Source of the DNA: Nonomuraea aurantiaca | GTDB lineage: Bacteria > Actinomycetota > Actinomycetes > Streptosporangiales > Streptosporangiaceae | DNA: 64,000 bases | Direction: 5' to 3' | NCBI RefSeq assembly: GCF_020215705.1 | Contig: NZ_JAIWNB010000003.1 | Location: forward strand, 1-64,000 | In this document: piece by piece, positions 3,341-22,794 of the stretch | Numbering within the stretch: position 1 is the stretch's first letter | Layout of the letters: every line of letters begins with the position of its first letter | Notes under the pieces: model-generated | Told to the model about the DNA's origin: nothing | Seen by the model: the letters and a program-made list of their open reading frames with translations, nothing else | Database searches by the model: none | Translations under genes and position numbers: made by a program

Positions 3341-4675
3341 TCAGCGGATGAGGCGTAGGGCTTCGGCCATGGCAGCGAGACGGCGGGGGGAGGCGAGGCC
3401 GGCATGGTAGAGGTGGAAATCCGTGGCGCCTGCCTTGGCGTACGTTCTGAGCTGTTCGGCGAGTGCCTGGCCGTCGGCGGGGCGTGGGGGAAGGGCCAGG
3501 ACATATGCGCCCACTCGCTGGCCGGGACCGCAGAGTTCGCCGAGTCTGGCGAGGCGGGCGGCGTCCGAGGTCGGGTCGCCCCAGCAGTTGCCTACCAGCA
3601 CCTCCGCTCCGGGCTCACCGGCGGGGAGGGCGGCGAACGAGCTGGCAGCCCAGGGGTCGGGGTTGGCGTGCAGGGTGATGGGTACGTTCGGCGCGGTCTC
3701 GCGGGCCACGGTGATGAGGCGGGTGCGCAATGATGCCGACAGGTCTACGCGTACGTTTCGGACATCATCGGCGAATGGGCCGAGGGCGGCCTCCACAGTC
3801 CCGGGGGAAGATGGCGAGCCAGAAGCCGGCGACGCAGCCGCTGGTGAGGCAGCGGTTGGCGATGCGGCTGCTGACGAGCCGGAAGCCCGCGACGCACCTG
3901 CTTGTGCGGCGGCAGACGGCGATGCAGGCGCAGGTGCTGGCGAGGTGGCAAACGGTGCGGAAGAGGTCGGTGCGGGAGATGTCGGGTCGTGCTTGCTCGA
4001 CGCGGGAGAGGTTACGGCGCTAGCGGTAGGGCCGTCGATGGCCGCGCGTACGCGTTCCCTGGTGCCCTCCGGGTAACGGGGAGCGCAGGCCGTACAGAAG
4101 CAGAGCGTCAGCAGGTCACTGTCTACGGATGTCCAGTCGGCGCCGGCCGTCTTCTCGTGCACGCTCTGGTGCCCGAAGCCCATGGGTCCGCACGCCTCGA
4201 GGATGAGGCCATCCGGTTCTCCGACGGTCAGGATCTCGCTGACCAGACGCTCGCAGTACTCGATCACGTCCTCGAAAGCCGGACACAGCGCATATGGATA
4301 AGGATCACCGAATGCGTTACGTACCACCAGGTCAGGGTGCATGCCGCCCAGGAAGGAGTTGTGTGTCAACACCGTCCATGCGTGTACCTGCAGTCCGACG
4401 GCCTTCAGGGCGTCCCGTGCCTGCAGGTAGGCGTCCGTGGGTGTCCAGGTTGGGGAGGCCGGTGTCAGGCGTCCCCACGAGGAGGGCCGCACTGGCAGGT
4501 AGAAAGCCGATTGTGGGACATCCAGCACCCGGTGGGCGGGGTGATACGGCGTTGCCGCGCGGGTGGAGTGATAGCTGGCCGCCAACGCGACGGCCTCGAC
4601 GCCCAGCTCCGCGAGGCGCGAAGGGGCCGACGGGTCGCCGACGATGTCCCAGGGGTAGGCGTAGGCCACGTTCAC
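3341..4675 (-). CDS. Uncharacterised protein linked to aldarate genes, with Ala/Ser/Pro insert
   Basis: A 444-residue protein of unknown function. The N-terminal half (VNVAYAYPWDIVGDP, VEAVALAASYHSTRAATPYH, GLQVHAWTVLTH) and the C-terminal segments (TLHANPDPWAASSF, EVLVGNCWGDP, GATDFHLYHAGLAS) alternate strands and helices like a TIM-barrel hydrolase, but no catalytic motif is recognised. Residues about 220-305 are an Ala/Ser/Pro-rich stretch interrupting the fold, encoded by repetitive DNA. The GTG at 4675 overlaps the stop of the glucarate-dehydratase-like gene (GTGA), so the two form one operon and a role in sugar-acid use is likely by context. No signal peptide is seen, so it should be cytoplasmic. 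Confidence 0.6.
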   Translation of the reverse strand: MNVAYAYPWDIVGDPSAPSRLAELGVEAVALAASYHSTRAATPYHPAHRVLDVPQSAFYLPVRPSSWGRLTPASPTWTPTDAYLQARDALKAVGLQVHAWTVLTHNSFLGGMHPDLVVRNAFGDPYPYALCPAFEDVIEYCERLVSEILTVGEPDGLILEACGPMGFGHQSVHEKTAGADWTSVDSDLLTLCFCTACAPRYPEGTRERVRAAIDGPTASAVTSPASSKHDPTSPAPTSSAPFATSPAPAPASPSAAAQAGASRASGSSAAASPTAASPAAASPASGSPSSPGTVEAALGPFADDVRNVRVDLSASLRTRLITVARETAPNVPITLHANPDPWAASSFAALPAGEPGAEVLVGNCWGDPTSDAARLARLGELCGPGQRVGAYVLALPPRPADGQALAEQLRTYAKAGATDFHLYHAGLASPRRLAAMAEALRLIR

Positions 4676-5928
4676 CAGCGCGGTCTCCTCGCAGTGAAAG
4701 CAGGCTCGAAGCGCTGCATATAGGTGGTGTCGTCGCGTTCGGTGATTCCGCACGCGAGATATTGCTCATGCATCACGGCCAGGGCGTCACGGTCCAGTTC
4801 GATGCCGAGACCGGGCCCCTCGGGCACGGGTACGGCGCCGTCGACGAACCGCAATGCGCCCGGCGCGACTACGTCCTGCCCGTTCTGCCACGGCGTGTGG
4901 GTGTCGCAGGCGTGGGTGAGGTTCGGCGTGGCGGCGGCCAGGTGGGTCATCGCGGCCAGGCTGATCCCAAGGTGCGAGTTGGAGTGCATGGACAGCTCCA
5001 GCCCGAACGTGTCACACAGCGCGGCGATATGCGAGGAGCGTACGAGTCCGCCCCAGTAATGATGGTCGAGCAGCAGCACGCCGATCGCCTTGGTGGCGAT
5101 GGCGGGCGGAAGGTGCTCGGGCGTCACCACGCACATGTTGGTGGCCAGCGGCATCGGGACTTCGGCGGCGACCTTCGACATCCCGGGGATTCCGGGCGTG
5201 GGGTCCTCCAGATACTGCAGGCTGCCTTCGAGGGCTTGTCCTACCTGGATCGAGGTCTCGACGGTCCAAGCGGCGTTCGGGTCGAGGCGGAGGGGCACGC
5301 CGGGGAAGGCCTCCCGCAGGGCTATGATTGCCTCGACTTCTTCCTGGGGCGCGAAGACGCCGCCTTTGAGCTTGATCGACGCGAAACCGTACTCCTTGAT
5401 CAGCATCGATGCCTGCTCGACCAGCCCTGCCGGGTCGAGCGCCGCGCCGAACCTGTCCGGCTCGCCGTCCGGATGTCCCGCCCACTTGTAGAAGAGATAG
5501 GCGCTGTACGGCACGGCTTCGCGTGCTCGGCCGCCCAGCAGATCGACGACGGGCACGCCGGCTGCCTTGCCGCGAATGTCCAGACAAGCCACCTCGAAGG
5601 CCGCGAACACCCGATCGATGCTCTTCTCCTGGGTTGCGGCCCCAGTCAAGCCGTGCATGTCGGTCACTACGTCGCCGACGATCGCGCTGATCCTGGCATA
5701 CATCTCATTCGTGGCATGCACATCCACGCCGACCAGTGCCTCGGCGCATTCGCGTACCTTGGTGAGATGTCCCAGGTCACCGTACGTCTCGCCGAGGCCG
5801 CTCAGCCCCTCATCGGTGACCACCTCGACGATCGTTCGCAGCGCCCAGGGTTCGTGCACGCCGGCGGCGTTCAAGAGCGGCGGATCCTTGAAAGCTACGG
5901 GGGTGACGTGGATCTGCCTGATGATCAT
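4672..5928 (-). CDS. gudD: Glucarate dehydratase-type enolase superfamily enzyme
   Basis: A 418-residue enzyme predicted to dehydrate D-glucarate (or galactarate) to 5-dehydro-4-deoxyglucarate using Mg2+. Enolase-superfamily residues are in place: K186-x-K188 (SIKLKGG), D216 and N218 (RLDPNAAW), E241 (YLEDP), N264 (ATNMCVV), D288 (LLLDHHYWGG) and H315. HSNSHLGIS and ATNMCV are signatures of the glucarate dehydratase subgroup. The ATG at 5928 was chosen because homology begins at MIIRQIHVTPV; an ATG at 5943 is also possible. The gene is divergent from the aldehyde dehydrogenase at 6033 and has a good promoter and a 16-bp palindrome in its leader. Substrate preference between glucarate and galactarate is not certain. 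Confidence 0.85.
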   Translation of the reverse strand: MIIRQIHVTPVAFKDPPLLNAAGVHEPWALRTIVEVVTDEGLSGLGETYGDLGHLTKVRECAEALVGVDVHATNEMYARISAIVGDVVTDMHGLTGAATQEKSIDRVFAAFEVACLDIRGKAAGVPVVDLLGGRAREAVPYSAYLFYKWAGHPDGEPDRFGAALDPAGLVEQASMLIKEYGFASIKLKGGVFAPQEEVEAIIALREAFPGVPLRLDPNAAWTVETSIQVGQALEGSLQYLEDPTPGIPGMSKVAAEVPMPLATNMCVVTPEHLPPAIATKAIGVLLLDHHYWGGLVRSSHIAALCDTFGLELSMHSNSHLGISLAAMTHLAAATPNLTHACDTHTPWQNGQDVVAPGALRFVDGAVPVPEGPGLGIELDRDALAVMHEQYLACGITERDDTTYMQRFEPAFTARRPRW

Positions 5929-5937
5929 ATGACCGCC

Positions 5938-5953
5938 GTCCATATATGTGAAC
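5938..5953. promoter_or_regulatory. Palindromic operator in the glucarate dehydratase leader
   Basis: Minus-strand GTTCACATATATGGAC differs at one base from GTTCACATATGTGGAC at 21874-21889, upstream of the IclR-linked ABC importer. A related half-site (TTTGTGGACA) lies at 5964-5973. Both full sites sit downstream of a predicted promoter, where a bound repressor would block transcription. The IclR protein at 17941-18708 is the natural candidate (inference). Confidence 0.65.
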
Positions 5954-5984
5954 AAGTGCCAGGTTTGTGGACAGGTTGTCGCAA

Positions 5985-6032: not shown

Positions 6033-7505
6033 ATGATCTACGGACACAACCCCAGGACCGGCGAGACCGTGGGCAGTGCCCTGCCTGAAACCGACCGCGC
6101 CGGGGTCGACATGGTTGTTTCCGCCGCGGCCGCCGCAGGTGCGGCCTGGCGGGCGACTCCCGCCGCCGAGCGGGCCGAAGCGCTGGAGGCCGTCGCCGAC
6201 GCTCTCGCCGCGAAGGTGGACGAGCTGTGGCAGATCGCCGACAGTGAGACCGCGCTGGGAGAGGTACGACTGCGCGGCGAGGTCGCTCGTACGGCCGGCC
6301 AGTTCCGGCTGTTCGCCCAGGTGATCAGAGATGGTGGCTACCTCGACGCCATCGTCGACCACGCCGACCCCTCGGCCACCCCGCCCAGGCCCGACGTGCG
6401 CCGGATGAAGCAGCCGCTGGCCGGCGTGGTCGCGGTGTTCGCGGCGAGCAACTTCCCGTTCGCGTTCTCCGTGGCGGGTGGCGACACCGCATCGGCGCTG
6501 GCCGCCGGTTGCGCGGTCGTGGTGAAGGCGCATCCCGGCCACCCCAACACCTCCGAGCAGGTCGCTCGCATCGTCCGCAAGGCCCTGCCGTACCCCGACC
6601 TGCTGGGACTGGTGCAGGGCATGCAGGCGGGTGCCGACCTGGTGCAGCACCCGAGCGTGGTCGCGGCCGGGTTCACCGGGTCGGTCCCGGGCGGCAAGGC
6701 GATCCAGGGGCTGATCGACCAGCGAGAGGTGCCGATCCCGTTCTTCGGAGAGCTGGGCAGTGTCAACCCGGTCGTCGTGCTGCCGTCCGCGCCTGTGGCG
6801 GAGGTGGCCACCGGGTTCGCTGCGTCGCTGACGATGGGGGTCGGGCAGTTCTGTACGAATCCCGGGCTGATGTTCGTGCCCGCGGGCGACGAGCTGCGCA
6901 AGGCGCTGGCCGAGGCCGTGGAGGGCACCACCGGCGGGCCGATGCTGGCTGAGCGGATCAGGGACGGCTACCTGGGCGGGCTGGAGCGGCTCGGCGAGCT
7001 GCCGGTGCTGGCCGAGGGCAAGGCGGGAGAGGGTAGCTTGGCCGTCACGCCCACGGTGTTCACCACGGATCTCGACTCGTTCGCGGCGAAGTTGCCGGGC
7101 ATCGGCGAAGAGTGCTTCGGCCCGGCGTCGATCGTCGTGACTTACCGCGAGATTTCGGACCTGCGGGCGGTGCTGGAGCGGCTGGATGGGTCGCTGACGG
7201 CCACCGTGCACGCGACCGACCCCAGCGAGGCCGGTGAGGTCGCCGAGGTGCTCGGGCGTAAGGCCGGGCGGCTGATCTGGAACGGCTGGCCCACCGGCGT
7301 GGCGGTGTGCTGGGCGATGCATCACGGCGGTCCGTGGCCGGCCTCGACGTCGGCAGCGCACACGTCGGTCGGCGCGACGGCCATCGACCGGTGGCTGGTG
7401 CCGACGGCGTACCAGGACTGGCCGGGTGAGCTGCTTCCGGAAGAGCTCAGGGACGACAACCCGCTGGGTGTGCCCCGACGGGTGGACGGCGCGCTGGGGC
7501 GTTAG
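6033..7505 (+). CDS. NADP-type aldehyde dehydrogenase (alpha-ketoglutarate semialdehyde class)
   Basis: A 490-residue aldehyde dehydrogenase. N140 (AASNFPF), K165 (VVVKAHPGHP), E240 (FFGELGSVNP) and nucleophile C274 (GVGQFCTNPG) are present. VVVKAHPGHP and GVGQFCTNPG are typical of the 2,5-dioxovalerate (alpha-ketoglutarate semialdehyde) dehydrogenase group, which makes alpha-ketoglutarate as the last step of oxidative aldarate or pentose breakdown. It is divergent from the glucarate dehydratase gene and likely shares its control region. Length is normal. A strong hairpin follows at 7526-7561. Confidence 0.88.
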   Translation: MIYGHNPRTGETVGSALPETDRAGVDMVVSAAAAAGAAWRATPAAERAEALEAVADALAAKVDELWQIADSETALGEVRLRGEVARTAGQFRLFAQVIRDGGYLDAIVDHADPSATPPRPDVRRMKQPLAGVVAVFAASNFPFAFSVAGGDTASALAAGCAVVVKAHPGHPNTSEQVARIVRKALPYPDLLGLVQGMQAGADLVQHPSVVAAGFTGSVPGGKAIQGLIDQREVPIPFFGELGSVNPVVVLPSAPVAEVATGFAASLTMGVGQFCTNPGLMFVPAGDELRKALAEAVEGTTGGPMLAERIRDGYLGGLERLGELPVLAEGKAGEGSLAVTPTVFTTDLDSFAAKLPGIGEECFGPASIVVTYREISDLRAVLERLDGSLTATVHATDPSEAGEVAEVLGRKAGRLIWNGWPTGVAVCWAMHHGGPWPASTSAAHTSVGATAIDRWLVPTAYQDWPGELLPEELRDDNPLGVPRRVDGALGR

Positions 7506-7561: not shown

Positions 7562-7607
7562 TGCTGTCTCGTGTCGCGCACGGCTGTCTGGCATGTCCAG
7601 CACCAGG

Positions 7608-7640
7608 ACCTGGGCATTCTTCATGGAGAAACGCCCAGGT
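7608..7640 (-). terminator. Stem-loop downstream of the 7735-8385 gene
   Basis: ACCTGGGC (7608-7615) pairs with GCCCAGGT (7633-7640), with an inner TTCT/AGAA pairing. It lies about 95 bp past the stop of the minus-strand gene at 7735 and could end its transcript. No other signal was seen in 7562-7734. Confidence 0.35.
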
Positions 7641-7734
7641 CGGCGGTTGAGGAAACTTCGGGCTTGGTGAAGCTTCTGCTTCTTCGTCGAGGTTTTTGCA
7701 GTGGCGCTGAAGCCGAGGAGGCGTGCCCTGCGGG

Positions 7735-8385
7735 TCAGAAGGCGGTGATCGTGGCGGGGGCGCGCTCGACCCGGGTCAGGGCGCGAAGGACGGCGACGGC
7801 GCCGTGCCGTCGCGCCGCCAGGGTGGCGAGGATGCCGATGACTGTGTCGGTGGCATCCGTGGGCAACGCGGGAGTCTCCATGCCGGCGCTGACCGCCAGG
7901 TCGTCTATGTGAACGACGAGTTCCATCATGCGGTTGATCAGAAGGTCGTCCAGGAGAAGCGAGGGCGGCCCCCAGGGGAACTGGACCACCCGGTTCTGCG
8001 GTTGCCGCGGCAGTTCCTTGTGCAGCCGGTCGAGGACCGCCGTGATCCCGGCCGCCAGCGCGTCGGGTCCCTTGGCGGCGTAGTCGGCGCCGCTGCGCCT
8101 GATTGCCAGGTGGACCTCGCCTTCGTGATCTGCGTTGAGCCAGCGGGCGCGCAGGAAGTAGTCGAGCAGGCAGATGGGCGGGGTGTCAGGGTCCTGGCCA
8201 TCGAGCGCTGTGGCCACCACGTTGATCTGGCCCGCCAGGTGTCCGGCCAGCCCACTGACCGTGTAGTGCATCAGCGCGCTCGGCCGGTCCCATGCGGCCG
8301 CCACGGCAGGCTCGGCGAGAAGTTTCGCCGCCACGTCGGCGACGGCGAGGTACTGCTCGCTGATGGAGCTATGAGTGATCACCAC
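7735..8385 (-). CDS. Mycothiol-dependent maleylpyruvate isomerase-like protein (DinB fold)
   Basis: About 216 residues, similar to actinobacterial proteins with the maleylpyruvate isomerase N-terminal domain, a DinB-like four-helix metal- and mycothiol-binding fold. Supporting segments are MHYTVSGLAGHLAGQ (first metal-site histidine region) and RMMELVVHIDDLAVSAG (H-x3-D motif region). Members include mycothiol S-transferases, but the substrate is unknown. Two adjacent GTG codons (8385 and 8382) could start it and neither has a strong ribosome site. It is alone between an aldarate operon and the transposon zone. Confidence 0.65.
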   Translation of the reverse strand: MVITHSSISEQYLAVADVAAKLLAEPAVAAAWDRPSALMHYTVSGLAGHLAGQINVVATALDGQDPDTPPICLLDYFLRARWLNADHEGEVHLAIRRSGADYAAKGPDALAAGITAVLDRLHKELPRQPQNRVVQFPWGPPSLLLDDLLINRMMELVVHIDDLAVSAGMETPALPTDATDTVIGILATLAARRHGAVAVLRALTRVERAPATITAF

Positions 8386-8610
8386 CGTAACTCTGGGGCC
8401 CCCGCGCGATGTCCGCAATCATTTGGCTGATGCTGTCGGGAATCTTCGAAAGTCTCGTGATCACCTGATTTCGCGCCAGGATCGGGAGCGGGCGATGCGG
8501 TCGAGGAACAAGACCCCGCCAGTCGTGACGAACCCAAGGGTCCAAACGCCCTATGAAGCTGAAGACCCCATGAGTTCATCCTGAAGACCCCTCAGGTCGC
8601 CTGAACTCTG

Positions 8611-8700
8611 GGATTTCAGCGGGGTTGAGCAGCATACGAACGAAAAGTCGCGTTAGGCGGCCCTCGGGGCTCGGCTTAGCGTGGATAGCCGTTCTGACGT
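8611..8700. repeat. Dispersed palindromic repeat, copy 1
   Basis: A block of GGATTTC, then GGGGTTGAGCAGCA, CGAACGA, GTCGCGTTAGG, a GC-rich spacer and GATAGCCGTTCTGA. It matches blocks at 11689-11776 and 14503-14580. The two flanks are weakly complementary, giving a hairpin. Apart from this repeat, 8386-8810 holds nothing I could identify. Confidence 0.55.
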
Positions 8701-8810
8701 GTTTGACCTGCGAAATCATGCAGTTCACGGGGTCGCCTGAGCTGTTTGCGGATCACAATTTGATCTTGCGCCTGGTCCGCTCTGGTGGATGAGTCCTACT
8801 TTCTGGGCCC

Positions 8811-9058
8811 ATGCCGGTTGAGTTCTTGAGCGATGATGAGGCGGCCGCCTACGGCCGCTACGTAGGGGCACCGACGCGGGCCGAGCTGGAGAAGATGTTC
8901 TTCCTCGACGACGCGGACCGGAGGCTGATCGGGCGTCGCCGTGGCGATCAGCACCGGCTCGGGTTCGCCCTGCAGCTGACCACGGCCGGTTCGTGGGCCG
9001 GTTCCTGCCGGATCCGCTGGAGGTCCCGGCCGAGGTGATAGCGATCGAGGGTTGTCCG
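8811..9058 (+). pseudogene. Tn3-family transposase, N-terminal fragment with frameshift
   Basis: The frame starting ATG 8811 reads MPVEFLSDDEAAAYGRYVGA and continues RRRGDQHRLGFALQLTT, the conserved N-terminus of Tn3-family TnpA. At about 8986 a base appears to be lost; the homology continues in another frame as RFVGRFLPDPLEVPAEV and then ends near 9045-9058. About 80 of roughly 1000 residues remain, so it is a remnant. No terminal inverted repeat was recognised. Confidence 0.75.
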
Positions 9059-9232
9059 TCGGCGCAGGTCGGCGAGGCTGGGCGAGCGGAATCATGGCAG
9101 CTCCTGGTGCGTGTGGCTGACGGGGCTGCCGGTAGAGGAGGGCTCGGCGTTGGCGGGAGCCGCGGCGGCGGGGACTTCCCCTTCCGGCGGCGGCCGTCAG
9201 CGGCGCGGGAAGCTGTCCGCGCAACCGCCTGT

Positions 9233-9286
9233 GTCTGGCCTGGGCAAGGTCTTTTGCGCTAGCAAAAGACCTTGCCCAGGCCAGAC
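9233..9286. repeat. Perfect 25-bp inverted repeat with 4-nt loop
   Basis: The left arm 9233-9257 (starting GTCTGGCCTGGGCAAGG) is exactly complementary to 9262-9286, with loop GCTA. It lies between the Tn3 remnant and the left end of the ISAs1-type element and belongs to no gene I can see. There is no T-run after it. The rest of 9059-9392 is GC-rich and unassigned. Confidence 0.9.
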
Positions 9287-9392
9287 CTCGCCCCCTTAGA
9301 GCCCCCGCTGCGCGGGGCGAGAGGGCGGTTGAGCGGAGCGGCGCCCCGTGACGCAGGCTGCGAAGTCGGAAGGGCAGGGCCCGCCCGTCCTG

Positions 9393-10741
9393 CAGGGGCG
9401 AAGCGTTCTGGCTGGTAGGACCTACGCGGGCTCGACGAGGCCGGGTGGTTGAGGGCACCCCCGGGGTGTGAATGACAAACGCGGCCCCTGATGATCGTTG
9501 GTTGTCTACGCCAGTCGATCAAGAACAGGCGCCGCGTTCGCGTGCCATCATCCCCGATCGACGTGCTCGCCCGCCACCTGGAGCACGTCGCCCTCACCGA
9601 CCCACTGACCGACCTGCTCGATCTGCCGGCCCTGCCCGAGGTGCTGGACACGGTGCCCGACCCGCGCAGCCGCCGGGGACGCCGCTACCGGCTCGGCCCA
9701 CTGCTGGCCTTATCCCTGCTCGCCGTGCTCGGCGGCGCAACTTCCCTGGCGAAGATCACCCGGGTCATCGCCGGATACGACCCACACCTTCGCGCCCGCG
9801 CCGGGCTGCCTGGCACGGCCAAGCTGGCCGCCAGCACCCTGGGGCGGCTGCTGTCCCGGCTGGACGGCGACGCCTTCGACACTGCCACCTGCGGCTACCT
9901 GGCCTCACTCGCCGCCTGCGGCCCGCCCTCCGACCGAACCCCGCTCATCGGCCTGGCCGTGGACGGCAAGACCCTGCGCGGCAGCCGCACCCCCGACACC
10001 ACGGTGCACCTGCTGGCCGCCACCCGCCACGACACCCAGACCGTCGTAGCTCAGCGGCAGGTCGAAGCCCACAGCAACGAGATCCCCGCGTTCACACCCC
10101 TGCTGCCCGGACTCGACCTCACCCACACGGTGATCACCGCCGACGCCCTGCACACCCAGCACGAACACGCCCGCCACATCATCGCCGCCGACGGCCACTA
10201 CCTGTTCTTATCGTCAAGGGCAACCAGCCCACCTTGCACCGCCGACTCAAGGCCCTGCCCTGGCGCGAAGCGATCCTCAACGACCGCACCGACGAGACCG
10301 GACACGGCCGCCGCGAGATCCGCCGCATGAAGATCTGCACCGTCCGCCCCGAGCTGCCCTTCCCCCACGCGGCCCAGGCGATCCAGGTCAAACGCGGCCG
10401 CACCGACCACCGCACCGGCAAGACCACCATCGTCACGATCTACGCCGTCACCAGCCTCCCACCAGGACGCATCACCCACGCCCAGCTCGCCGCGCTGATC
10501 CGCGGACACTGGAGCATCGAAGCCCTGCACCACATCCGCGACGTCACCTACCGCGAAGACGTCTCCAAAGTCCGCACCGGCACCGCACCCCGGATCATGG
10601 CCAGCCTCCGCAACCTGGCCATCGGCCTGGCCCGCCTGATCGGCTGGACCAACATCGCCGCCGCCACCGACCACTACCGCAGCCACCCCGCCGACGGCCT
10701 CCAGCTACTCGGTCTTACAACATGAGAACGCTTCGACCCTG
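9393..10741 (+). mobile_element. ISAs1-family insertion sequence, 1349 bp
   Basis: The ends are imperfect 17-bp inverted repeats: CAGGGGCGAAGCGTTCT at 9393-9409 and the complement of CAGGGTCGAAGCGTTCT at 10725-10741 (16 of 17 match). Between them is a single ISAs1-type transposase gene disrupted by a frameshift. No flanking target duplication is apparent. The right end abuts the promoter of the small secreted protein gene at 10818. Confidence 0.8.
9542..10725 (+). pseudogene. ISAs1-family DDE transposase, frameshifted
   Basis: The GTG at 9542 begins a frame with the ISAs1 N-terminal domain ([20 protein letters not shown]), catalytic-region motifs ([22 protein letters not shown]) and then a break at about 10208, where one base is lost relative to the family consensus. 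The rest continues in another frame ([41 protein letters not shown]) to the stop at 10723. Together the parts equal a full-length transposase of about 390 residues. The stop overlaps the right inverted repeat. Confidence 0.85.
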
Positions 10742-10748
10742 GGCTGAA

Positions 10749-10788
10749 AGCGATCGGTGAGCGATCTGTAAGCGCCGTTTCCTACGGT
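10749..10788 (+). promoter_or_regulatory. Three 11-bp-spaced direct repeats ahead of a small secreted protein gene
   Basis: AGCGATC (10749), AGCGATC (10760) and AGCGCCG (10771) recur at exactly 11-bp spacing, followed by a TACGGT at 10783-10788 that could be the -10 box. Heptamer repeats with this period just upstream of the -10 are typical of AfsR/SARP-type activator sites. No SARP gene is in the window. Confidence 0.5.
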
Positions 10789-10817
10789 TGCGGCATTCCC
10801 AACTTCGAGGAGAGTCG

Positions 10818-11114
10818 ATGCGAGTATCCAAGCGAAAGCCGACGCGAGTATCCAAGCTGGCCGCCGGTGCGCTGATGGCCGCCGCGCTCGTCACCCCCGC
10901 CCTGGCGGCCACCCCCGCCCTGGCGGCCACCGCAGCGCAGGCGGCGCCGCCGCCGACCACGACGGACTGGACCCAGGAGGGGCCGTTCTCCACGTTCGAC
11001 GCCTGCGATCACCGCAGGCGCTTCTGGGACCAGCTCGACGGGCGTTCGCACTACTGCCAATGGGCCGACGGCACCCACGAGAACCGCGGCTGGTGGATCC
11101 GCACTCGTGGCTGA
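10818..11114 (+). CDS. Small secreted protein with one GPF-Cys-Cys-GWW unit
   Basis: A 98-residue protein with a classic export signal: basic start (MRVSKRKPTRVSK), hydrophobic core and AAQA cleavage region near residue 45. The mature part has two cysteines in GPFSTFDACDHRRRFWDQLD and RSHYCQW, then GWW near the end. The same pattern occurs twice in the 120-residue protein at 13274-13636, so they are probable relatives. The signal peptide contains repeats (RVSK twice, TPALAA twice) reflecting DNA duplications. The ATG at 10818 has a GAGGAGA ribosome site. Function unknown; a disulfide-stabilised extracellular protein is likely. Confidence 0.7.
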   Translation: MRVSKRKPTRVSKLAAGALMAAALVTPALAATPALAATAAQAAPPPTTTDWTQEGPFSTFDACDHRRRFWDQLDGRSHYCQWADGTHENRGWWIRTRG

Positions 11115-11120
11115 GCCGCG

Positions 11121-11553
11121 CTAGCGCCGCCGCAGCAGGTACGTGTCCATGGTCCAGCCCTTGCGCGCGCGGGCCCGCGCACGCACCTGTTCGAGGTGGC
11201 CGGCCACCTCGGACAGCGGGCCGGCGATCAGGATCTCGTCGGGCGTGCCGGGGTAGGCACCCAGTAGATCGTGATGTCCTCGGCCGCGTATAGGGCGAAG
11301 GCGCACTGCGCGTCCAGCATCACCACGACGTCGTCCACGCCGGAGGGCCAGCCCTCGGCGAGGCGCCGCCCGGTGGTCACCACGAACGGCCGCCCGACCC
11401 GGTTCAACGCGACCCGGTGCCGGGCGGCCAGCGCCGCCACGCTGCTCACGCCCGGAACGACGGCGTACTCGAAGGCGATCTCGCCGCGCGCCAGGATGTC
11501 CTCGACGACGGCCAGCGTGCTGTCATAGAGGGCCGGGTCGCCCCAGACCAGGG
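11121..11553 (-). pseudogene. cobF: Precorrin-6A synthase (cobF) fragment, frameshifted
   Basis: The minus strand shows LVWGDPALYDSTLAVVEDIL, VVPGVSSVAALAARHRVALN, TTGRRLAEGWPSGVDDVVVM and, after a one-base loss near 11260, GAYPGTPDEILIAGPLSEVA and ARKGWTMDTYLLRRR. These match the C-terminal two thirds of CobF, the SAM-dependent C1-methyltransferase/deacetylase of aerobic cobalamin synthesis. The N-terminal third is missing and replaced by unrelated sequence, so the gene is doubly broken. No other cobalamin gene is in the window. Confidence 0.8.
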
Positions 11554-11657: not shown

Positions 11658-11688
11658 GTGATCTCCTTCGGTTACCTTGTACGACTAA

Positions 11689-14580: not shown

Positions 14581-14681
14581 GAGGTGGGCGCGGGGCGTGG
14601 CCGTAGCCGAGGTGGGCGAGGGCGCGGTCGTAGCCGAGGTGGGCCCGGCCGGTGTGCGGGCCTGGCTGGCATTCCCTGCTC

Positions 14682-14839: not shown

Positions 14840-15751
14840 CAGAGCCTGGAACAGGCGGGCCGGGTTCTCGGCGATGCGGTTGCAGACGTACAGCCACCAC
14901 TGGGTGCCGAACACGACGTACTCCCTGACCGGATGCCCGCGATCCCGCATCGTCCGCAGCTGATCGATGCCGAGTCCCAGCAGCATCTCGACCTCGTAGG
15001 CGCCGGAATCCTGCCGCATGTGTGGCTGCAGTTCGTCGAGGAGGTCGAGGTCGTGGGTGGCGATCGAGCATAGGTGGCCGCTGTCCAGCAGGCGGGTCGC
15101 GTACGCGAGGTAGGCCGCCCGCAGCTCGCGGCTGTCGCGGGGGTGGGCGATGGACTCGGGTTCGAGGTAGGAGCCCTTCACCAGGCGGATGCGGCCGGGT
15201 CGCGTCAGCAGGCGGGGCAGGTCCTCGTCCGTGCGGTGCAGGCGGGCCTGAATGGTGACGCCGACGTGGTCGAAACGCCCGCAGAGGCGTTCGTGAGTCC
15301 ACAGGATGAGGTCCGTACGATCGGTCCCCTCCATCGAGATCATCATCTCCTGGCCCGCGGCGGCGGTGGCCTCGGCCAGCCGGGTGGCGTTGGCCAGCCC
15401 CAGCTCGCGGTCCACCACGGAGCCGATGTGGGACAGGTCGAGGGACACCGAGCAGTTCACCCCGCGCGCTGCGGCCTGCCGTGACAGGTCCAGGAATACC
15501 TCGGTCTCGGCCGTGGCCAGGTCGGCGTCGCGGCAGCTCTCGCCCATGTAGTCAAGGGTGACGGCGCTGCCCTCCGCGTTGAGCAGGGCGGTCCGGGCGA
15601 GCGCCTCGCCGACGGTCTGGCCGCCGATGTACCGCTCGGCCACTCGCCAGGCCAGCTCGCGCAGTGCGGGATCTGCGGCGACCCGGTCCTTGAGGTCCTC
15701 ATCAAGGGCCAGTGCCCGCATTGTCTGGGCCGCCTGCTCCATCACGATCAT
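14816..15751 (-). CDS. Proline dehydrogenase
   Basis: A 311-residue monofunctional FAD-dependent proline dehydrogenase that oxidises L-proline to pyrroline-5-carboxylate. Family motifs are present: DYMGESCRDADLA, GVNCSVSLDLSHIGSVVDRE, MISMEGTDRTDLIL, RLVKGSYLEPESIAHP, SIATHD and YEVEMLLGLG. The ATG at 15751 is preceded by AAGGAAGACG. The upstream 40 bp are unusually AT-rich (a run of seven T) and may be the promoter. No pyrroline-5-carboxylate dehydrogenase gene is adjacent. The gene end is partly duplicated downstream. Confidence 0.88.
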   Translation of the reverse strand: MIVMEQAAQTMRALALDEDLKDRVAADPALRELAWRVAERYIGGQTVGEALARTALLNAEGSAVTLDYMGESCRDADLATAETEVFLDLSRQAAARGVNCSVSLDLSHIGSVVDRELGLANATRLAEATAAAGQEMMISMEGTDRTDLILWTHERLCGRFDHVGVTIQARLHRTDEDLPRLLTRPGRIRLVKGSYLEPESIAHPRDSRELRAAYLAYATRLLDSGHLCSIATHDLDLLDELQPHMRQDSGAYEVEMLLGLGIDQLRTMRDRGHPVREYVVFGTQWWLYVCNRIAENPARLFQALVDATQRA

Positions 15752-16009
15752 CGTCTTCCTTTCATCCGGAAGCCAGGACACTATCACCAATCTATATTTT
15801 TTTAGAAGGTGTCTGCCTTGCCGGTTGAGCGACCTCTCGATGCATCCGGCAGGAGGTGCGCGAACGCGCTTTGCGGGTAGCGGCCGCGCTGGAGACGCGC
15901 GGTGTAGGTGGAGGGGCACGTCGAACGCCTCAGGCAGGGAGGGGAAGGCGAAGTGCTCGGCGGCGTCGCGAGAGGGCCGTAGCCGCCGCTGATGACGTGT
16001 GCTTTCGCG

Positions 16010-16700
16010 GGTCCGTCGCTGTCCCGCTGTCCCGTCGTCCTGTCGTCTCCCTGTTCAGTCGTCCCGTCATCCCGTGGGCCAGTCAACGCGTCCGTCCCAT
16101 CGGTGGTGCGGGTCGCTGGCGCGCACGTCCGTCAGTGGGCGGGTCGGTCGGGGGCGGCTGGCCCGTCGTCCCGTTGCCCCCCTGTTCAGTCGTCCTGTCA
16201 TCCTGCCGGCCAGTCGCGTCCGTCCCATCGGTCGTGCGGGTCGCCGGCGCGCATGTTCGCTCGGTGGTGCAGGTCGCTGGCACGTACGTCCATCAGTGGG
16301 CGGGTCGGTCGGGGGCGGCGGGCCCGGCGTCGAGCCAGTCGGGGGACGGCTTCGAGACGGCGGCGACGCCGAGGTCGCCGTGGGGGGAAGCCGATCGCCG
16401 ATGGAGACATAACCGCCCCCTGGTGGTGGCGTAGCACGCTGCCGACCGTCTGTTGGTCGCGGAGCGGGTGAAGGCAACTGCGGGTGAAGGCAGCTGCGTG
16501 GGAGGGGCGGATCGGTTGGAGGGTGAGGCGAAGCCTCGGATCGGTTGCGGGTGGGTGAGGCAGCCGAGGCGGGGTGGCCTGGCTGCGGTTGGGGGGTGAG
16601 GCGAAGGCCTGGATTGGTTGTGGGGTGGGTGAAGGCAGTCGGTGGAGGCGGAGGTCAGGATCGGTCGCGGGGCTGGGGGAAGCGCCGCAACTCTTGAAAA
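16010..16700. repeat. Non-coding low-complexity tandem repeat region
   Basis: Two long copies, beginning at 16051 and 16182 (CTGTTCAGTCGTCC), share CGTCCGTCCCATCGGT and CAGTGGGCGGGTCGGTCGGG; the second has an internal partial duplication. From 16460 to 16700 shorter blocks such as GGTGAGGCGAAG and GATCGGTTG recur. Overlapping frames on both strands read as repetitive Arg/Gly/Thr/Pro and show no homology, so I see no gene between 15752 and 16717. Confidence 0.7.
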
Positions 16701-16717
16701 GCCTTCACAAGGACCGG

Positions 16718-17623
16718 TCAGGCCCCGGCGATCTCCAAGCCGATGGCCAGGATGCGCTCCAGCTCCCGCAGGTCCTCCGCAGAGGGATCGACCAGCGGAG
16801 CCCGTACGCCGCCGACCGCCAAGCCCCGCAACCGGACCCCTGCCTTGACCAGCGAGACCGCGTACCCCGGCACCCGGTCCCGTAGCTCCACCAGCGGCAG
16901 GTAGAAGTCGGTGAGCAGTCGCCGCACCAGCACCTCGTCGTCCCCGGTCACCGCCTTGTGGAAAGCCAGTGCGATCTCCGGGGCGAAGGCGAAGACGGCG
17001 CTGGAGTACAGCGTCACGCCCAGCCCTCGGTAGGCGGGGACGGTCAATTCGGCGGTGGGCAGGCCGTTGAAGAAGGTGAACTCCCGGTCCGTAGACCGCC
17101 GTACGGTCAGGATGATGCGCTGGAGCAGGTCGAAGTCGCCGAGTCCGTCCTTGAAACCGATGATCTCGGGCAGTTGGGCCAGCTCGGCCACCGCTGAGGG
17201 GGAGAAGCGGGCGGTGGCGCGGTGATAGATGATGACGGGCAGCCCACCGGCTGAAGCCACCTCACGTACGTAGCGGACCAGGCCGTCCGGGGGAGCGGTC
17301 ACCAGGTAGGGGGGCATCAGCAGCAGGCCGTCGGCTCCGTTGTCCGCCGCCGCGCGGGCGAACGCCTTGGCGGTGGGGAGCGGGCCGCCCGCGCCCGCGA
17401 AGACCGGGACCCGGCCGCCCGTGGCCCTCACCGACGTGGCCACGACCTTGGTGTAGTCGGCGACGTCGAGCGCGTTGAACTCGCCTGTGCCGCATGCGGT
17501 GAACACTCCTCCGGCTCCGGCGGCGACCCCATTGGCGACGTGCTCCGCCATCGCCTGTTCGGCTATGTCGCCGTCAGTGCCATAAGGGGTCACGGGAAAG
17601 AAGAGAACACCATCTAGCCGCAT
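16718..17623 (-). CDS. kdgD: 5-dehydro-4-deoxyglucarate dehydratase
   Basis: A 301-residue DHDPS-superfamily TIM barrel predicted to dehydrate and decarboxylate 5-dehydro-4-deoxyglucarate to alpha-ketoglutarate semialdehyde. Schiff-base Lys158 is in GFKDGLGDFD, Tyr133 in VIIYHR and the substrate loop in ACGTGEF. LFFPVTPY, FFNGLPTAELT and LYSSAVFAFAP are typical of this subgroup rather than of dihydrodipicolinate synthase. The ATG at 17623 has a GGAAGGA site. It is the last gene of the minus-strand importer/IclR group and supplies the step between the dehydratase at 4672-5928 and the aldehyde dehydrogenase at 6033-7505. A paralogue lies at 31566-32444. Confidence 0.9.
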   Translation of the reverse strand: MRLDGVLFFPVTPYGTDGDIAEQAMAEHVANGVAAGAGGVFTACGTGEFNALDVADYTKVVATSVRATGGRVPVFAGAGGPLPTAKAFARAAADNGADGLLLMPPYLVTAPPDGLVRYVREVASAGGLPVIIYHRATARFSPSAVAELAQLPEIIGFKDGLGDFDLLQRIILTVRRSTDREFTFFNGLPTAELTVPAYRGLGVTLYSSAVFAFAPEIALAFHKAVTGDDEVLVRRLLTDFYLPLVELRDRVPGYAVSLVKAGVRLRGLAVGGVRAPLVDPSAEDLRELERILAIGLEIAGA

Positions 17624-17659
17624 CAACAATCCTTCCTAGCAAGCGGATGATCAGATAAG

Positions 17660-17940: not shown

Positions 17941-18708
17941 TCAGCGGATGCCCTCCCGGCGAAGCGTGGCGGCCAGCTTGCGCGTGTGTCTGGTCACCGC
18001 TTCCGTGACCCGCTCGATCTCGTCGGGTGCCAAACCCGCCGGCATCGAGCAGCTGATCGCGTCCGTCGCCGGGATCCGGTAGTCGACGGCCACCGCCACG
18101 CAGGCCACGCCCGGAGTGCCCTGTTCGCGTTCGTAGGCCCAGCCCCGGGTGCGTACCTGGTCGAGTTCCCCGATCAGCTTGGCCGGATCGGTGAAGCTGT
18201 GCTCGGTGATCGGCGCCAGCGGGTCCGGCAGCAGGGCCGCGACCTCGTCGTCGGTGAGCTGGGCGAGCAGCACCTGGCCGAGCGCCGTGACGTGGGCGGG
18301 CAGCCGCCGGCCCACCCTGGGGATCACGTGGTGGGCCTCCCGCGACTCCCTGGTCGCCAGGTAGAGGACGTGGGCCTCGTCGCGGCGGGCGAAATGCGCG
18401 GTCTGGCCGGTCTCCGCGCGCAGGTCCTCCAGCGTCTCCTGGGCCAGGGGCAGCGCGGGGTCCTTGTCGAGGTACGCGGTGCCGGTCAGCAGCGCGTGCG
18501 GCCCGATGCCGAAGGCCGATCTGGCGGAGTCGGTCTCGACCCAGTTCAGCTCGACCAGGGTGCGCATCAGGGCGTGCAGGGAGCTGCGCGGAAATCCGGT
18601 GTGCTGCTGGAGCTCCGACAGTGTCAGGGTCTCGTGGGAGGCGGCCAGGGTCTCGAGGATGCGGACCGTCCGCTCGGCGGACTTGACTAGCTGGGGCTCC
18701 ATACTCAT
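17941..18708 (-). CDS. IclR-family transcriptional regulator
   Basis: A 255-residue regulator. The N-terminal winged helix (SAERTVRILETLAASHETLT, LQQHTGFPRSSLHALMRTL) is followed by the IclR ligand domain (GQTAHFARRDEAHVLYLATR, PAHVTALGQVLLAQL, GVACVAVAVDYR). Related IclR proteins control sugar-acid and aromatic catabolism. It lies between the importer genes (62 bp upstream) and kdgD on the same strand. The shared palindrome at 5938 and 21874 is the best candidate operator, which would tie the two aldarate loci together (inference). ATG 18708 is used; ATG 18702 is possible. Confidence 0.88.
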   Translation of the reverse strand: MSMEPQLVKSAERTVRILETLAASHETLTLSELQQHTGFPRSSLHALMRTLVELNWVETDSARSAFGIGPHALLTGTAYLDKDPALPLAQETLEDLRAETGQTAHFARRDEAHVLYLATRESREAHHVIPRVGRRLPAHVTALGQVLLAQLTDDEVAALLPDPLAPITEHSFTDPAKLIGELDQVRTRGWAYEREQGTPGVACVAVAVDYRIPATDAISCSMPAGLAPDEIERVTEAVTRHTRKLAATLRREGIR

Positions 18709-18769
18709 CCCATCTTGACAGAGGCTTCAGTGTGTCAGCATATGGGATTCCATCCAGATACATGGACGC

Positions 18770-19633
18770 CTAGCCCTTGATGGCGCCGCTTGTCAGGCCG
18801 CGCATGAACTGCCGCTGGAAGGCCAGGAACGCGATGATCGACGGCAGCAGCGCGAGCAGTGATGCCGCGAGCAGTACGCCGATGCCGACCTCCTCGTCGG
18901 AGCGCAGGGAGCGCAGCGCGATGGGCAGCGTCCACATGCTGGACTCGGGCGCCACGATCAGCGGGAGCAGATACTGGTCCCAGATCATGGTGAAGCCGAA
19001 GACGCCGATGACGCCGAGCGCGGGCCGGCACAGCGGCAGGATGATGCCGAAGAAGATGCGCAGCTCGCCCGCGCCGTCGATGCGCGCGGCCTCCTCCAGC
19101 TCGACCGGCACCTCTTTCATGAACTCGGTCATGACCAGGATGGAGAAGCCCCAGGCGCCCACCGGGAGGATCATGCCCGCGTACGTACCGATGAGATCGG
19201 CGTGGATGATGGGCATGTCGGCGAGCACCAGCGAGAGCGGGATCGCGATGATCTCCTCGGGCAGCATCATCGTCGCCAGCATGATCAGCATCACGAACGC
19301 CATGCCCCTGAACTTCTTGCGAGCGAGCGCGTAGGCGGCGAAGACGCTGACGAGCATCTGGAGCAGCAGCCCGAACCCGACCACCACGAACGAGTTGAAC
19401 AGGTAGTGGTAGACGTTCTTGTTGCCGGCCTGGACGAAGTTCTCCAGGGTGAAGTCGTCGGGCCAGAGCGTGAATCTGGTCGGGTCGAGCGTCTTGCTGA
19501 AGGCGCTGACCAGCAGCCCGACCAGCGGCCCGGTGAAGATGATCACCATGAAGGCGTAGACCAGCACCTTGAGGGTCGTGGCGAGAGGCCCCCGCCTGGA
19601 CTCCAGGCCGAGAGCGCTGTCGAATCTCATCAT
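18770..19633 (-). CDS. Sugar ABC importer permease (MalG-like)
   Basis: A 287-residue inner-membrane permease with six predicted helices and the EAA coupling loop EEAARIDGAGELRIFFGIIL, for contact with an ATPase encoded elsewhere. It overlaps the preceding permease by ATGA. By context the importer should bring in a uronate, aldarate or oligouronide (inference). No ATPase gene is present, as is usual for actinobacterial sugar importers served by a shared MsiK-type ATPase. Confidence 0.88.
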   Translation of the reverse strand: MMRFDSALGLESRRGPLATTLKVLVYAFMVIIFTGPLVGLLVSAFSKTLDPTRFTLWPDDFTLENFVQAGNKNVYHYLFNSFVVVGFGLLLQMLVSVFAAYALARKKFRGMAFVMLIMLATMMLPEEIIAIPLSLVLADMPIIHADLIGTYAGMILPVGAWGFSILVMTEFMKEVPVELEEAARIDGAGELRIFFGIILPLCRPALGVIGVFGFTMIWDQYLLPLIVAPESSMWTLPIALRSLRSDEEVGIGVLLAASLLALLPSIIAFLAFQRQFMRGLTSGAIKG

Positions 19634-20556
19634 GCGTTCTGCCTCCTGCGCATGACCTGGGTCAGCACCGTGAGCAGCAGGGTCACCGCGAACAGCACGA
19701 TCCCGCCGGCCGACGCGGTGCCCAGGTCACCCTTCTGGAACCCGAGCTTGTAGATCAACGTCATCAGCACTTCGGTCGATCCGTTCGGCCCGCCGTTCGT
19801 CAGCACGTACACCTCGACGAAGACGCGTATGCCGCGGATGGCGGCGAGGGTGAACAGGATCCAGAACACCGGGCGCAGCGCGGGCAGCGTGATGTGCCGC
19901 AGCCGGTGCCAGGTGGTGGCCCCGTCGACGGCGGCGGCCTCGTACAGCGTGCGGTCCACGCCGACCAGGCCGGCCAGGAAGATCATCATGTCGTACGGCG
20001 TGCCGCGCCAGATGCTCATGCCCATGATCGACAGCAGCGAGGAGTGCTCGCTGGCCAGGAAGGGCTGCGGATCCAGGGAGATCCAGCCGAGAATGGTGTT
20101 GATCATGCCACTGTCGGCGGGGTGATACATGATCCGCCAGACCTCGGCCACCGCCGCCATCGTGGTCACCACCGGCAGGAACGCCGCGGTCCTGATGAAC
20201 CACAGGTAGCGTGCCGGACCTTCGATGAGCAGCGCGAACAGCAGGCCGAGGACGAGCGAGCCCGCGGTCGTGCCCAGGGCCAGCACGATGCTGTGCCAGA
20301 TGGCCGAGACGAAGGCGTCGTCGGTCATGATCGTGGCGTAGTTGTCGAGGCCCACCCATCGATCACCGACGTAGCGGACCTCGAAGAAGCTCATCCGCAG
20401 GCCCTCGAACATGGGGATGAACTTGAAGAACAGAAACAGCAGCAAGGCCGGCGACAGGAACGCCCACGCGATGAGAGTCCCCCGCCGCCGCATCCGCTTG
20501 GGACGGCGGCGGGGGGTCTCCGTGCGGCTCCGCGCCTGGGTGAGCGTGGGGGTCAT
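19630..20556 (-). CDS. Sugar ABC importer permease (MalF-like)
   Basis: A 308-residue permease with a basic N-terminus, six hydrophobic segments and the EAA loop YEAAAVDGATTWHRLRHITL. ATG 20556 overlaps the stop of the binding-protein gene (ATGA). It pairs with the permease at 18770-19633. Confidence 0.88.
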   Translation of the reverse strand: MTPTLTQARSRTETPRRRPKRMRRRGTLIAWAFLSPALLLFLFFKFIPMFEGLRMSFFEVRYVGDRWVGLDNYATIMTDDAFVSAIWHSIVLALGTTAGSLVLGLLFALLIEGPARYLWFIRTAAFLPVVTTMAAVAEVWRIMYHPADSGMINTILGWISLDPQPFLASEHSSLLSIMGMSIWRGTPYDMMIFLAGLVGVDRTLYEAAAVDGATTWHRLRHITLPALRPVFWILFTLAAIRGIRVFVEVYVLTNGGPNGSTEVLMTLIYKLGFQKGDLGTASAGGIVLFAVTLLLTVLTQVMRRRQNA

Positions 20557-21860
20557 GATGCTTTCTGGGTCTGCAGTTCCTGGGTGAGCTTGGTGCTCAA
20601 GGTGTCCATCGCCGTCTTGACGTTGGCTGAGCAGTCGGCCCACACCGTGTTGATGGAGTCGGCGGAGTCCTGGCGGATCGGCGCCCAGTTCGGCACCGGC
20701 GGCGCGTAGACGGCGTTGGCGTACGCCTCCTGGAACACCTTCCAGCGCGGATCCTGGCGTTCGGCGGCCATGTCGACCTGGGAGTTGACGGGCAGGCGGA
20801 CGATGGCGCCGTTGGCGTCCTTGTTCATGCCGATGCGCTGGCCGTCGGGGGAGACCGCGAACTCGGCGAACTTCTTCTGGCCCTCGACGTTGTCGGAACC
20901 GGCCATCATGTAGACGTTCTCGCCCTCACCGAGGGTGCCGGGGCCGCCCGACGGGCCCTTGGGCACCGGTACGACCTCGATCTTGTCGGTCCCGATGCTC
21001 TTGACGAACCTGGCGAGCACGTACGGACCGACCAGGTAGATGCCGCCCTGCCCCTTCTCGAACACCTCGTGCGTGACGGTCGTGTCGTTGCTGACGGCGC
21101 CCGGGTTGACGGTCTTGGCCTTGCAGAACTGGTCCTGGAGGTACTGGACCGCCTCCACGGTCTTGGGGTCGTTCACGACGGGGCTGAACTTGCCGCCGCC
21201 GTTGGCCTTCACGAAGTCGCCGCCGTTGGCGTAGATCAGCGAGGAGGCGTACCAGGAGGCGTAGCCACGCTTGGTGCCCGCCGGGATCACGAAGCCGGCC
21301 GTGTCCTTCTGGCCGTTGCCGTCCGGGTCCTTGTCGGTGAAGGCCGCGGCCAGCTTGGCCAGGTCGTCCCAGGTCTTGGGCGGCTCCATGCCGACCTTCT
21401 CCCGCCAGTCCTTGCGGATGATCAGGGCGAAGGCCTGGGCGGAGAACGGCGTGCCGTAGTACTTGCCGTCGGAGCCCTGGGCGGCCTTCCATGCCTGCTC
21501 CGACACCTTGTCGGCGCCGGCCAGCTTGGCCTTGTCGACCTCCTGCAGCCAGCCCTGCGTGTGCATGTTGCCGAGTTGGGCCGTGTCGTTGATGACGATG
21601 TCAGGTAGCTTCTTCTGAGCTGCCTGCTGTTGAAGCTTCGTCTCGAAGTCATCGAAGAGTGCGACGACTTTCGTCTTGATACCGCTGGCCTTCGTGAACG
21701 CGTCGGCCAGTTTCACAGCCGTTTTGGCGGAGTCGGAATCGGGCGCCTGCCTGATCCAGATCTCCAACGCGTCATCCGAACTTGATCCCCCGGAGCCGCA
21801 GCCTGTCAGCGTTACGGCCAGGGCCGTCGCAATCGCGGCCCCGAGCAGCTGGCGTGACAT
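20553..21860 (-). CDS. Sugar-binding lipoprotein of ABC importer
   Basis: A 435-residue extracellular solute-binding protein (family 1). The lipobox is LTGC with Cys21; the mature part starts with a Gly/Ser linker and EIWIRQAPDSDS. It is first in the operon with the two permeases, IclR and kdgD. The ATG at 21860 has a GGGAGGCGG ribosome site, and a 16-bp operator lies directly upstream. Ligand likely a uronic or aldaric acid or oligosaccharide, inferred from the neighbouring uronate dehydrogenase. Confidence 0.9.
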   Translation of the reverse strand: MSRQLLGAAIATALAVTLTGCGSGGSSSDDALEIWIRQAPDSDSAKTAVKLADAFTKASGIKTKVVALFDDFETKLQQQAAQKKLPDIVINDTAQLGNMHTQGWLQEVDKAKLAGADKVSEQAWKAAQGSDGKYYGTPFSAQAFALIIRKDWREKVGMEPPKTWDDLAKLAAAFTDKDPDGNGQKDTAGFVIPAGTKRGYASWYASSLIYANGGDFVKANGGGKFSPVVNDPKTVEAVQYLQDQFCKAKTVNPGAVSNDTTVTHEVFEKGQGGIYLVGPYVLARFVKSIGTDKIEVVPVPKGPSGGPGTLGEGENVYMMAGSDNVEGQKKFAEFAVSPDGQRIGMNKDANGAIVRLPVNSQVDMAAERQDPRWKVFQEAYANAVYAPPVPNWAPIRQDSADSINTVWADCSANVKTAMDTLSTKLTQELQTQKAS

Positions 21861-21873
21861 CAGACCGCCTCCC

Positions 21874-21889
21874 GTTCACATATGTGGAC
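21874..21889. promoter_or_regulatory. Palindromic operator in the importer leader
   Basis: GTTCACATATGTGGAC is a near-perfect palindrome (one mismatched pair) and matches 15 of 16 bases of the site at 5938-5953. The adjacent GCGACA-type element is also shared between the two leaders. It lies between the predicted promoter and the ribosome site of the binding-protein gene. Confidence 0.65.
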
Positions 21890-21921
21890 ACCTGTCGCAG
21901 ACGTGGAGCCTGTCCGTGTGA

Positions 21922-21950
21922 ACGTAACGAGTGACATAGGTCACGGTCAA
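21922..21950 (-). promoter_or_regulatory. Predicted promoter of the importer operon
   Basis: On the minus strand TTGACC (21950-21945) and TTACGT (21927-21922) are spaced 17 bp. The arrangement (promoter, then 16-bp operator, then gene) mirrors the glucarate dehydratase leader. Confidence 0.5.
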
Positions 21951-21990
21951 TATTCAGGAATGTGAATTTGGACCAGGGTTGTGTACAACA

Positions 21991-22794
21991 ATGAGCCCTA
22001 TGCGCATTCTCATGACCGGCGCCGCCGGCAAGGTCGGTACGCTGCTCCGCCCCCGCCTCGCCCGTGACGGCCGCACGCTGCGCCTATCCGACCTTTATCC
22101 GCTGGAGACCGCGCCCGGCGAGGAGATGGTGACGGCCGATCTCGTCGACGAGGCGGCCATGGCCGAGGCGATGAAGGGCGTCGACGCGGTGATCCACCTG
22201 GGCGGCCAGAGCCGGGAGCATCCGTGGGCCGACATCGTACGGGCCAACATGGACGGCATGCACGTCCTGCTCGAAGCCGCCCGGCGGGAGGGCGTCGAGC
22301 ACCTCGTGCTCATGGGCAGCCACCACGCGGCCGGCTTCCACACCCGCCCGGCCGATGGCGCGGAGCTGCCCGACTACGCCTTCCCCCGGCCCGACACCTT
22401 CTACGGCGTGAGCAAGGTCGTCATGGAGGCCCTCGGCAGCCTCTATCACGACAGGTTCGGCATGAACGTGACCGTGATCCGGCTGGGCACCTGCAACGAG
22501 GCCTCGGGCGACACGCGCGGCCTGGCCACCTGGACCTCCCCTGACGACCTCGCCCGCCTGGTGGAGGCCGCGCTGACCGCGCCCGGCTACCACGTCGTCT
22601 GGGGCGTCTCCGACAACGCGCGCCGCTGGTGGTCGCTGGAGGAGGCCCGGTCGATCGGATACGTCTCGCGGGACGACTCGGAGGGCCAGGCCGCCGCGCT
22701 GATCGCCGAGCAGGGTGAGCCCGATCTGAGCGAGCCGCTGCACGACCGCGCGGGCGGCGTCTTCACGCTGAGGGACCTCGGAGGCAAGTGGTAG
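21991..22794 (+). CDS. udh: Uronate dehydrogenase-like NAD-dependent SDR
   Basis: About 267 residues of extended short-chain dehydrogenase fold, predicted to oxidise D-glucuronate or D-galacturonate to the aldarolactone with NAD+. The Rossmann motif is TGAAGKVG; the catalytic triad is Ser110, Tyr138 and Lys142 (FYGVSK). HLGGQSREHPWADI, LGTCNEASGDTRGLATW, SPDDLARLVEAAL and VVWGVSDNARRWW align well with bacterial uronate dehydrogenases. It is divergent from the importer operon. The start may be ATG 21991 or 22000. The product would feed the dehydratase at 4672-5928. Confidence 0.82.
   Translation: MSPMRILMTGAAGKVGTLLRPRLARDGRTLRLSDLYPLETAPGEEMVTADLVDEAAMAEAMKGVDAVIHLGGQSREHPWADIVRANMDGMHVLLEAARREGVEHLVLMGSHHAAGFHTRPADGAELPDYAFPRPDTFYGVSKVVMEALGSLYHDRFGMNVTVIRLGTCNEASGDTRGLATWTSPDDLARLVEAALTAPGYHVVWGVSDNARRWWSLEEARSIGYVSRDDSEGQAAALIAEQGEPDLSEPLHDRAGGVFTLRDLGGKW

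Follow-up and report, generated by a model that had tools for sequence, protein, structure and literature searches.

In the window analysed here, a 64 kb stretch of DNA from the soil bacterium Nonomuraea aurantiaca, the genes of an oxidative route for plant-derived hexuronates, together with an importer and an IclR-family regulator, very probably form an actinobacterial hexuronate regulon that descends from one ancestral cluster and was split in two steps, its functions being read from the sequence. The genes occupy a single locus, into which 9,145 bp of mosaic DNA have been placed between the ends of two convergent genes, and the two divergent promoters, which lie on opposite sides of the insert, each contain a 16-bp palindrome, GTYCACATATGTGRAC. 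An earlier note on this DNA had described a complete route from a uronate to alpha-ketoglutarate, distributed over distant loci and separated by broken transposons. Its central idea, that inserted DNA opened a single ancestral cluster, is backed by the comparison of gene order it had called for, which took in outgroup genera and more than 30 Nonomuraea genomes.

The four pathway genes named in the note were recovered at its positions as intact frames by family searches and by their nearest PDB relatives, and domain searches confirmed the importer and the regulator as belonging to one part, with a solute-binding protein (SBP), two permeases and IclR between kdgD and udh. The top PDB matches of the uronate dehydrogenase (UDH) are uronate dehydrogenases, with E values from 2.5e-53 to 4e-48, and the YxxxK motif is there. 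The KdgD-type 5-dehydro-4-deoxyglucarate dehydratase is nearest to 4ur7, a keto-deoxy-D-galactarate dehydratase (E 3e-57), carries the Schiff-base lysine in GFKDG and clears the PRK03620 subfamily with 407 bits at a cut-off of 278, while missing the narrower TIGR03249 (300 vs 374 bits). For the aldarate dehydratase the best solved relative is 3vc5 (E 1e-222), and for the protein of the alpha-ketoglutarate semialdehyde dehydrogenase (KGSADH) type these are 1eyy and 3v4c, the catalytic cysteine lying in GQFCTNPG and the glutamate in FGELGSVNP.

In pathway order, the ABC importer would bring a uronate or uronide into the cell, and UDH, with NAD as oxidant, would convert the uronate to an aldarolactone. 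Once the lactone ring is open, the GlucD-like enzyme would dehydrate the aldarate, the KdgD-type enzyme would dehydrate and decarboxylate the resulting product, and the aldehyde dehydrogenase would convert the semialdehyde to alpha-ketoglutarate. A further protein, here called ORPH, would act next to UDH and GlucD, either by freeing the uronate from a glycoside or by opening the aldarolactone.

The arrangement of these genes was followed by searching the four pathway proteins in 58 other genomes and inspecting about 35 loci. A conserved genus layout was found, with ORPH and glucD on the minus strand, KGSADH on the plus strand, kdgD-iclR-permB-permA-SBP on the minus strand, and udh on the plus strand. 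What had been taken for distant loci is therefore one locus with an insert, since in 26 congeners the kdgD-KGSADH interval measures only 62-3,808 bp (median 335 bp), and the 9.2 kb of the window is longer than any of these. In the close relative G026 (locus L010) the end of KGSADH lies 94 bp from that of kdgD; DNA homology to this locus stops at 7572, immediately past the terminator-like hairpin that follows KGSADH, and restarts at 16722, within the last codons of kdgD. One congener, G013 (L038), lacks glucD, udh, the in-cluster kdgD, ORPH and the operators all together.

An older rearrangement becomes visible beyond the genus, in gene-order counts over 80 loci fetched through ORPH. In 38 of them kdgD, glucD and ORPH directly succeed one another on one strand, an order shown by Acrocarpospora, Microbispora, Planotetraspora, Lentzea and two Streptomyces loci. 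KGSADH stands between kdgD and glucD in 31 of the 80, all from Nonomuraea, and adjoins udh in Microbispora, Planotetraspora and Lentzea. Judged by this outgroup comparison, the Nonomuraea order is derived, and the split therefore took two steps. The ancestral arrangement was probably one operon, SBP-permA-permB-kdgD-glucD-ORPH, diverging from udh-KGSADH. In the first step, KGSADH would have entered the main operon in inverted orientation, between kdgD and glucD, in the Nonomuraea ancestor; in the second, 9.1 kb of foreign mosaic DNA would have filled the new convergent KGSADH/kdgD interval in this strain, leaving promoters and operators intact.

The palindrome connects the two sides. Its copies in the glucD/KGSADH promoter, GTCCATATATGTGAAC, and in the SBP/udh promoter, GTTCACATATGTGGAC, are near reverse complements of one another, and two matches were found in the window where 0.02 were expected. 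Across the whole 11.8-Mb genome, only those two sites have at most one mismatch, and four further sites have two. Two of these four, beside a sugar-binding-protein/pfkB-like pair (L052) and a TetR-like gene (L055), were judged by eye and were not counted in the regulon. A position weight matrix (PWM) scan above 8 bits gave three sites in the window, all in this cluster; a weaker copy, ATCCAGATACATGGAC, stands ahead of iclR, and that position is occupied in nearly all congeners. Within the genus, 32 and 30 intervals were extracted for the two divergent promoters, and 60 of the 62 hold a copy with at least 13 of the 16 positions; in the two that remain (L020, L023) the copy runs into the annotated start of a gene and was cut off with it, but is present in the complete locus. 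In other genera (Lentzea, Microbispora, Planotetraspora and more) the motif lies just ahead of the SBP or kdgD start. An extra near-perfect palindrome sits right at the KGSADH end in two congeners (L026:9885 and L042:5118). The IclR-family protein is the probable regulator of the transcription units, acting at the two promoter copies and at the weaker one before its own gene. The shared operators give indirect support to co-regulation of both sides, so that the insert probably parts the genes but not the regulon. In the literature collection that was searched, no paper turned up on an IclR uronate regulon in Streptomyces or on the actinobacterial GlucD clade.

Table 1. Features of the hexuronate locus and of its insert (window coordinates).
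Feature	Position	Strand	Basis or remark
ORPH, conserved glycosidase-like TIM-barrel protein (predicted)	3341..4675	-	start overlaps glucD stop by 4 nt
glucD, GlucD-like aldarate dehydratase, enolase superfamily	4672..5928	-	domain and PDB searches
Operator palindrome 1	5938..5953	.	divergent glucD/KGSADH promoter
KGSADH-type aldehyde dehydrogenase	6033..7505	+	domain and PDB searches
Lineage-specific mosaic insert, between convergent KGSADH and kdgD ends	7573..16717	.	breakpoints against L010; interval sizes in 26 congeners
MDMPI-domain gene, inside insert	7735..8418		
Insertion sequence (IS) copy (DDE_Tnp_1 transposase), inside insert	9392..10743	+	frame broken
Helix-turn-helix (HTH) gene, inside insert	11934..12905		
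Partial second IS element, inside insert	13629..14498	+	
Proline dehydrogenase gene, inside insert	14816..15919	-	full Pro_dh domain; neither transposon nor pathway member
kdgD, KdgD-type 5-dehydro-4-deoxyglucarate dehydratase	16718..17629	-	curated models and PDB search
IclR-family regulator	17941..18708	-	domain searches
Weaker operator copy, ahead of iclR	18752..18767	.	PWM scan
ABC permease B	18770..19633	-	domain searches
ABC permease A	19630..20643	-	longest frame; start probably near 20559
ABC solute-binding lipoprotein (SBP)	20553..21860	-	domain searches
Operator palindrome 2	21874..21889	.	divergent SBP/udh promoter
udh, uronate dehydrogenase	21979..22794	+	PDB search; start 21979 or 21994

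The inserted DNA is not the expected 7 kb or so of broken transposons, as only about 2.2 kb of it matches repeated IS copies; it is a mosaic with intact-looking genes, mostly not transposon. The first of the two IS elements occurs many times in congeners; its transposase frame is broken here, whereas three other genomes have copies whose frame stays open over about 410 codons or more. No target-site duplication is evident at the insert ends, and for this reason no single transposition event is claimed. Because it was placed between two convergent gene ends, the insert disrupts no operon or promoter. A tRNA- or riboswitch-linked insertion site was considered and dropped, as the Rfam and tRNA scans came back empty. 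About 230 bp of the insert (8809-9037) matches many genomes, other orders included, at about 73%, and belongs to no tRNA or Rfam family.

ORPH, which the earlier note had missed along with the shared operators, is closely tied to the dehydratase gene. GlucD is encoded directly upstream of it on the same strand in 79 of the 80 loci, with touching or overlapping genes in 60. The exception is Streptomyces sp. ISL-66, where ORPH is divergent from udh, without a nearby glucD, and an operator-like site lies between. The protein has a low-complexity linker at about residues 215-300. No Pfam or NCBIfam model matches it, and no PDB relative was found by sequence, either with the protein alone or as a profile; the family's best score against Pfam GHL10 stays under the gathering cut-off (22.3 vs 27.9 bits, from a Haloferax homolog), and against GHL6 the best E value among 33 family members was 0.03. 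For the N. soli ortholog, in which the long linker is missing, AlphaFold predicts a TIM barrel (pLDDT 94.4, pTM 0.92). The closest structure matches of this model are Cwp19, GH29, PgaB and GH42, with VIA Z of about 20-23.5, the best of 23.5 covering 279 of 362 residues at a root-mean-square deviation of 3.2 Å. The predicted fold is thus like theirs, at an identity of 13-16% to the first three and of about 10-13% to GH42. No single glycoside hydrolase (GH) family stands out, as the hits from Foldseek and VIA are distributed among many GH-like barrels.

At the end of strand 4, the ORPH family has an invariant glutamate, E160. Distant homologs from Rhizobium and haloarchaea share this residue as well as His105-Asn106, His173, Lys175 and four cysteines, including CFCxxC, and on three haloarchaeal plasmids the homolog is found with an ABC importer, an enolase-superfamily gene, a gene of the short-chain dehydrogenase/reductase (SDR) family and an IclR gene. 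As a sugar dehydrogenase and an acid-sugar dehydratase recur beside it, this suggests that ORPH supplies or processes the substrate of these two enzymes. The modelled fold favours a glycosidase, and the position in the pathway may also fit a lactonase. It is tentatively proposed, as a possibility held with some doubt, that the GlucD-linked ORPH proteins of actinobacteria, rhizobia and haloarchaea constitute a new acid-sugar enzyme family, acting as a uronide-cleaving glycosidase or as an aldarolactonase between UDH and the dehydratase.

The pathway itself is a known one, here in a form conserved among actinobacteria. UDH from Streptomyces viridochromogenes oxidises glucuronate and galacturonate (PMC4476818); it and the window UDH are both actinobacterial and SDR-type, the former having been studied as an isolated enzyme whereas the latter is known from its sequence, and searching the text of PMC4476818 turned up neither a gene cluster nor an operon. 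With the oxidative hexuronate pathway of Agrobacterium and Pseudomonas (PMC6353982), the cluster has in common the UDH, KdgD and KGSADH steps and alpha-ketoglutarate as the end product. However, a GlucD-like dehydratase is found here instead of galactarolactone cycloisomerase (Gci), no Gli, UxuL or UxuF was recognised in this cluster, and ORPH and the actinobacterial operator are added. The actinobacterial GlucD-like proteins 3vc5 and 3vdg are very close homologs of the window dehydratase, for which the PDB gives only the names MR/MLE protein or probable glucarate dehydratase.

Several points weigh against the reading as a hexuronate regulon. The dehydratase reaches 247 bits against the curated glucarate-dehydratase equivalog TIGR03247, far under its cut-off of 828.7, hence the name GlucD-like; on this score glucarate, galactarate and idarate are all candidates for its aldarate. 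The KGSADH-type protein stays below every curated equivalog cut-off, and its assignment as putative alpha-ketoglutarate semialdehyde dehydrogenase follows from the aldehyde dehydrogenase family and the gene context. Binding of the palindrome by the IclR-family protein is probable, the evidence being linkage. Lastly, UDH makes an aldarolactone (PMC4476818), for which dedicated lactonases, UxuL and UxuF, exist in other bacteria (PMC6353982), and no SGL or PF10282 domain was found among the scanned cluster proteins, nor any recognised lactonase in the cluster, so that to call the route complete was too strong. SGL and PF10282 proteins are encoded elsewhere in the genome and could serve this step; the idea of a cell without any lactonase was dropped on that account.

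Other acid-sugar genes occur nearby and elsewhere in the genome. After udh, on the plus strand (23034-28648), there are a second sugar ABC importer and GFO/IDH/MocA and dienelactone-hydrolase-like genes, with no strong operator copy ahead of them. A second acid-sugar module on the minus strand (28625-32450) encodes a KdgD paralog (31566-32450), 61% identical to the cluster KdgD and found in most congeners, an enolase-superfamily protein and a GFO/IDH/MocA-DUF6807 fusion, the gene ends overlapping. A second cluster of the same genome (L048, G000:C41, 7329-11596) has GlucD-like (51-53% identical), KdgD-like (50%) and IclR (44%) genes and another enolase-superfamily gene.

These genes bear on the view that two separate sets are merely neighbours, KGSADH and glucD serving imported aldarates, and the importer, kdgD and udh serving another acid sugar, perhaps with the 28625-32450 module. 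Besides the paralog and the second cluster, this view can draw on four Nonomuraea clusters (L017, L025, L071, L086) in which the in-cluster kdgD is missing and the rest is kept, where the paralog may replace it. It is nevertheless unlikely, as the genes are contiguous in congeners and form one operon in outgroups, and both promoters carry the same operator, which the rest of the genome almost entirely lacks. A little less probable still is decay, in which the route has gone out of use in this strain and its locus is degenerating; the paralogous cluster could then replace it. The large insert would fit, as would possible damage elsewhere in the genus: in N. fuscirosea (L035, 2863-4380) the glucD match falls into two parts with about 320 bp between them, as a small insertion in the gene would produce, and the KGSADH orthologs G006:C1:5507414-5508847 (L020) and G032:C1:7501942-7503378 (L023) have one in-frame TGA each, which may be decay or a sequence error. 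In the window, however, no pathway frame is broken, those compared with close relatives being 91-97% identical, and both strong operators are intact. The locus probably still functions.

It could also be asked whether the 9-kb stretch is ancestral and the short interval derived, through DNA lost in G026 and others. Several congeners do hold 1-4 kb in the same interval, but in 10 of the 26 it is no longer than 151 bp, its contents vary among genomes, and several parts of the 9-kb stretch have matches in congeners at other sites of the genome, which makes this the least probable explanation. One ancestral hexuronate cluster, split in two steps, is thus preferred.

What is new here is the operator, together with the two-step history of the cluster and the ORPH family. 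With them, a guess about a split pathway becomes a proposed actinobacterial uronate regulon that is open to testing and has a defined operator of 16 bp; induction of both sides by a common substrate would be expected. The locus indicates that a catabolic cluster can withstand large insertions if these fall between convergent gene ends and not inside an operon. ORPH represents a strongly conserved enzyme-like family tied to an aldarate dehydratase. Its members may provide the uronate or carry out the lactone step of a pathway whose aldarates are sought-after chemical feedstocks.

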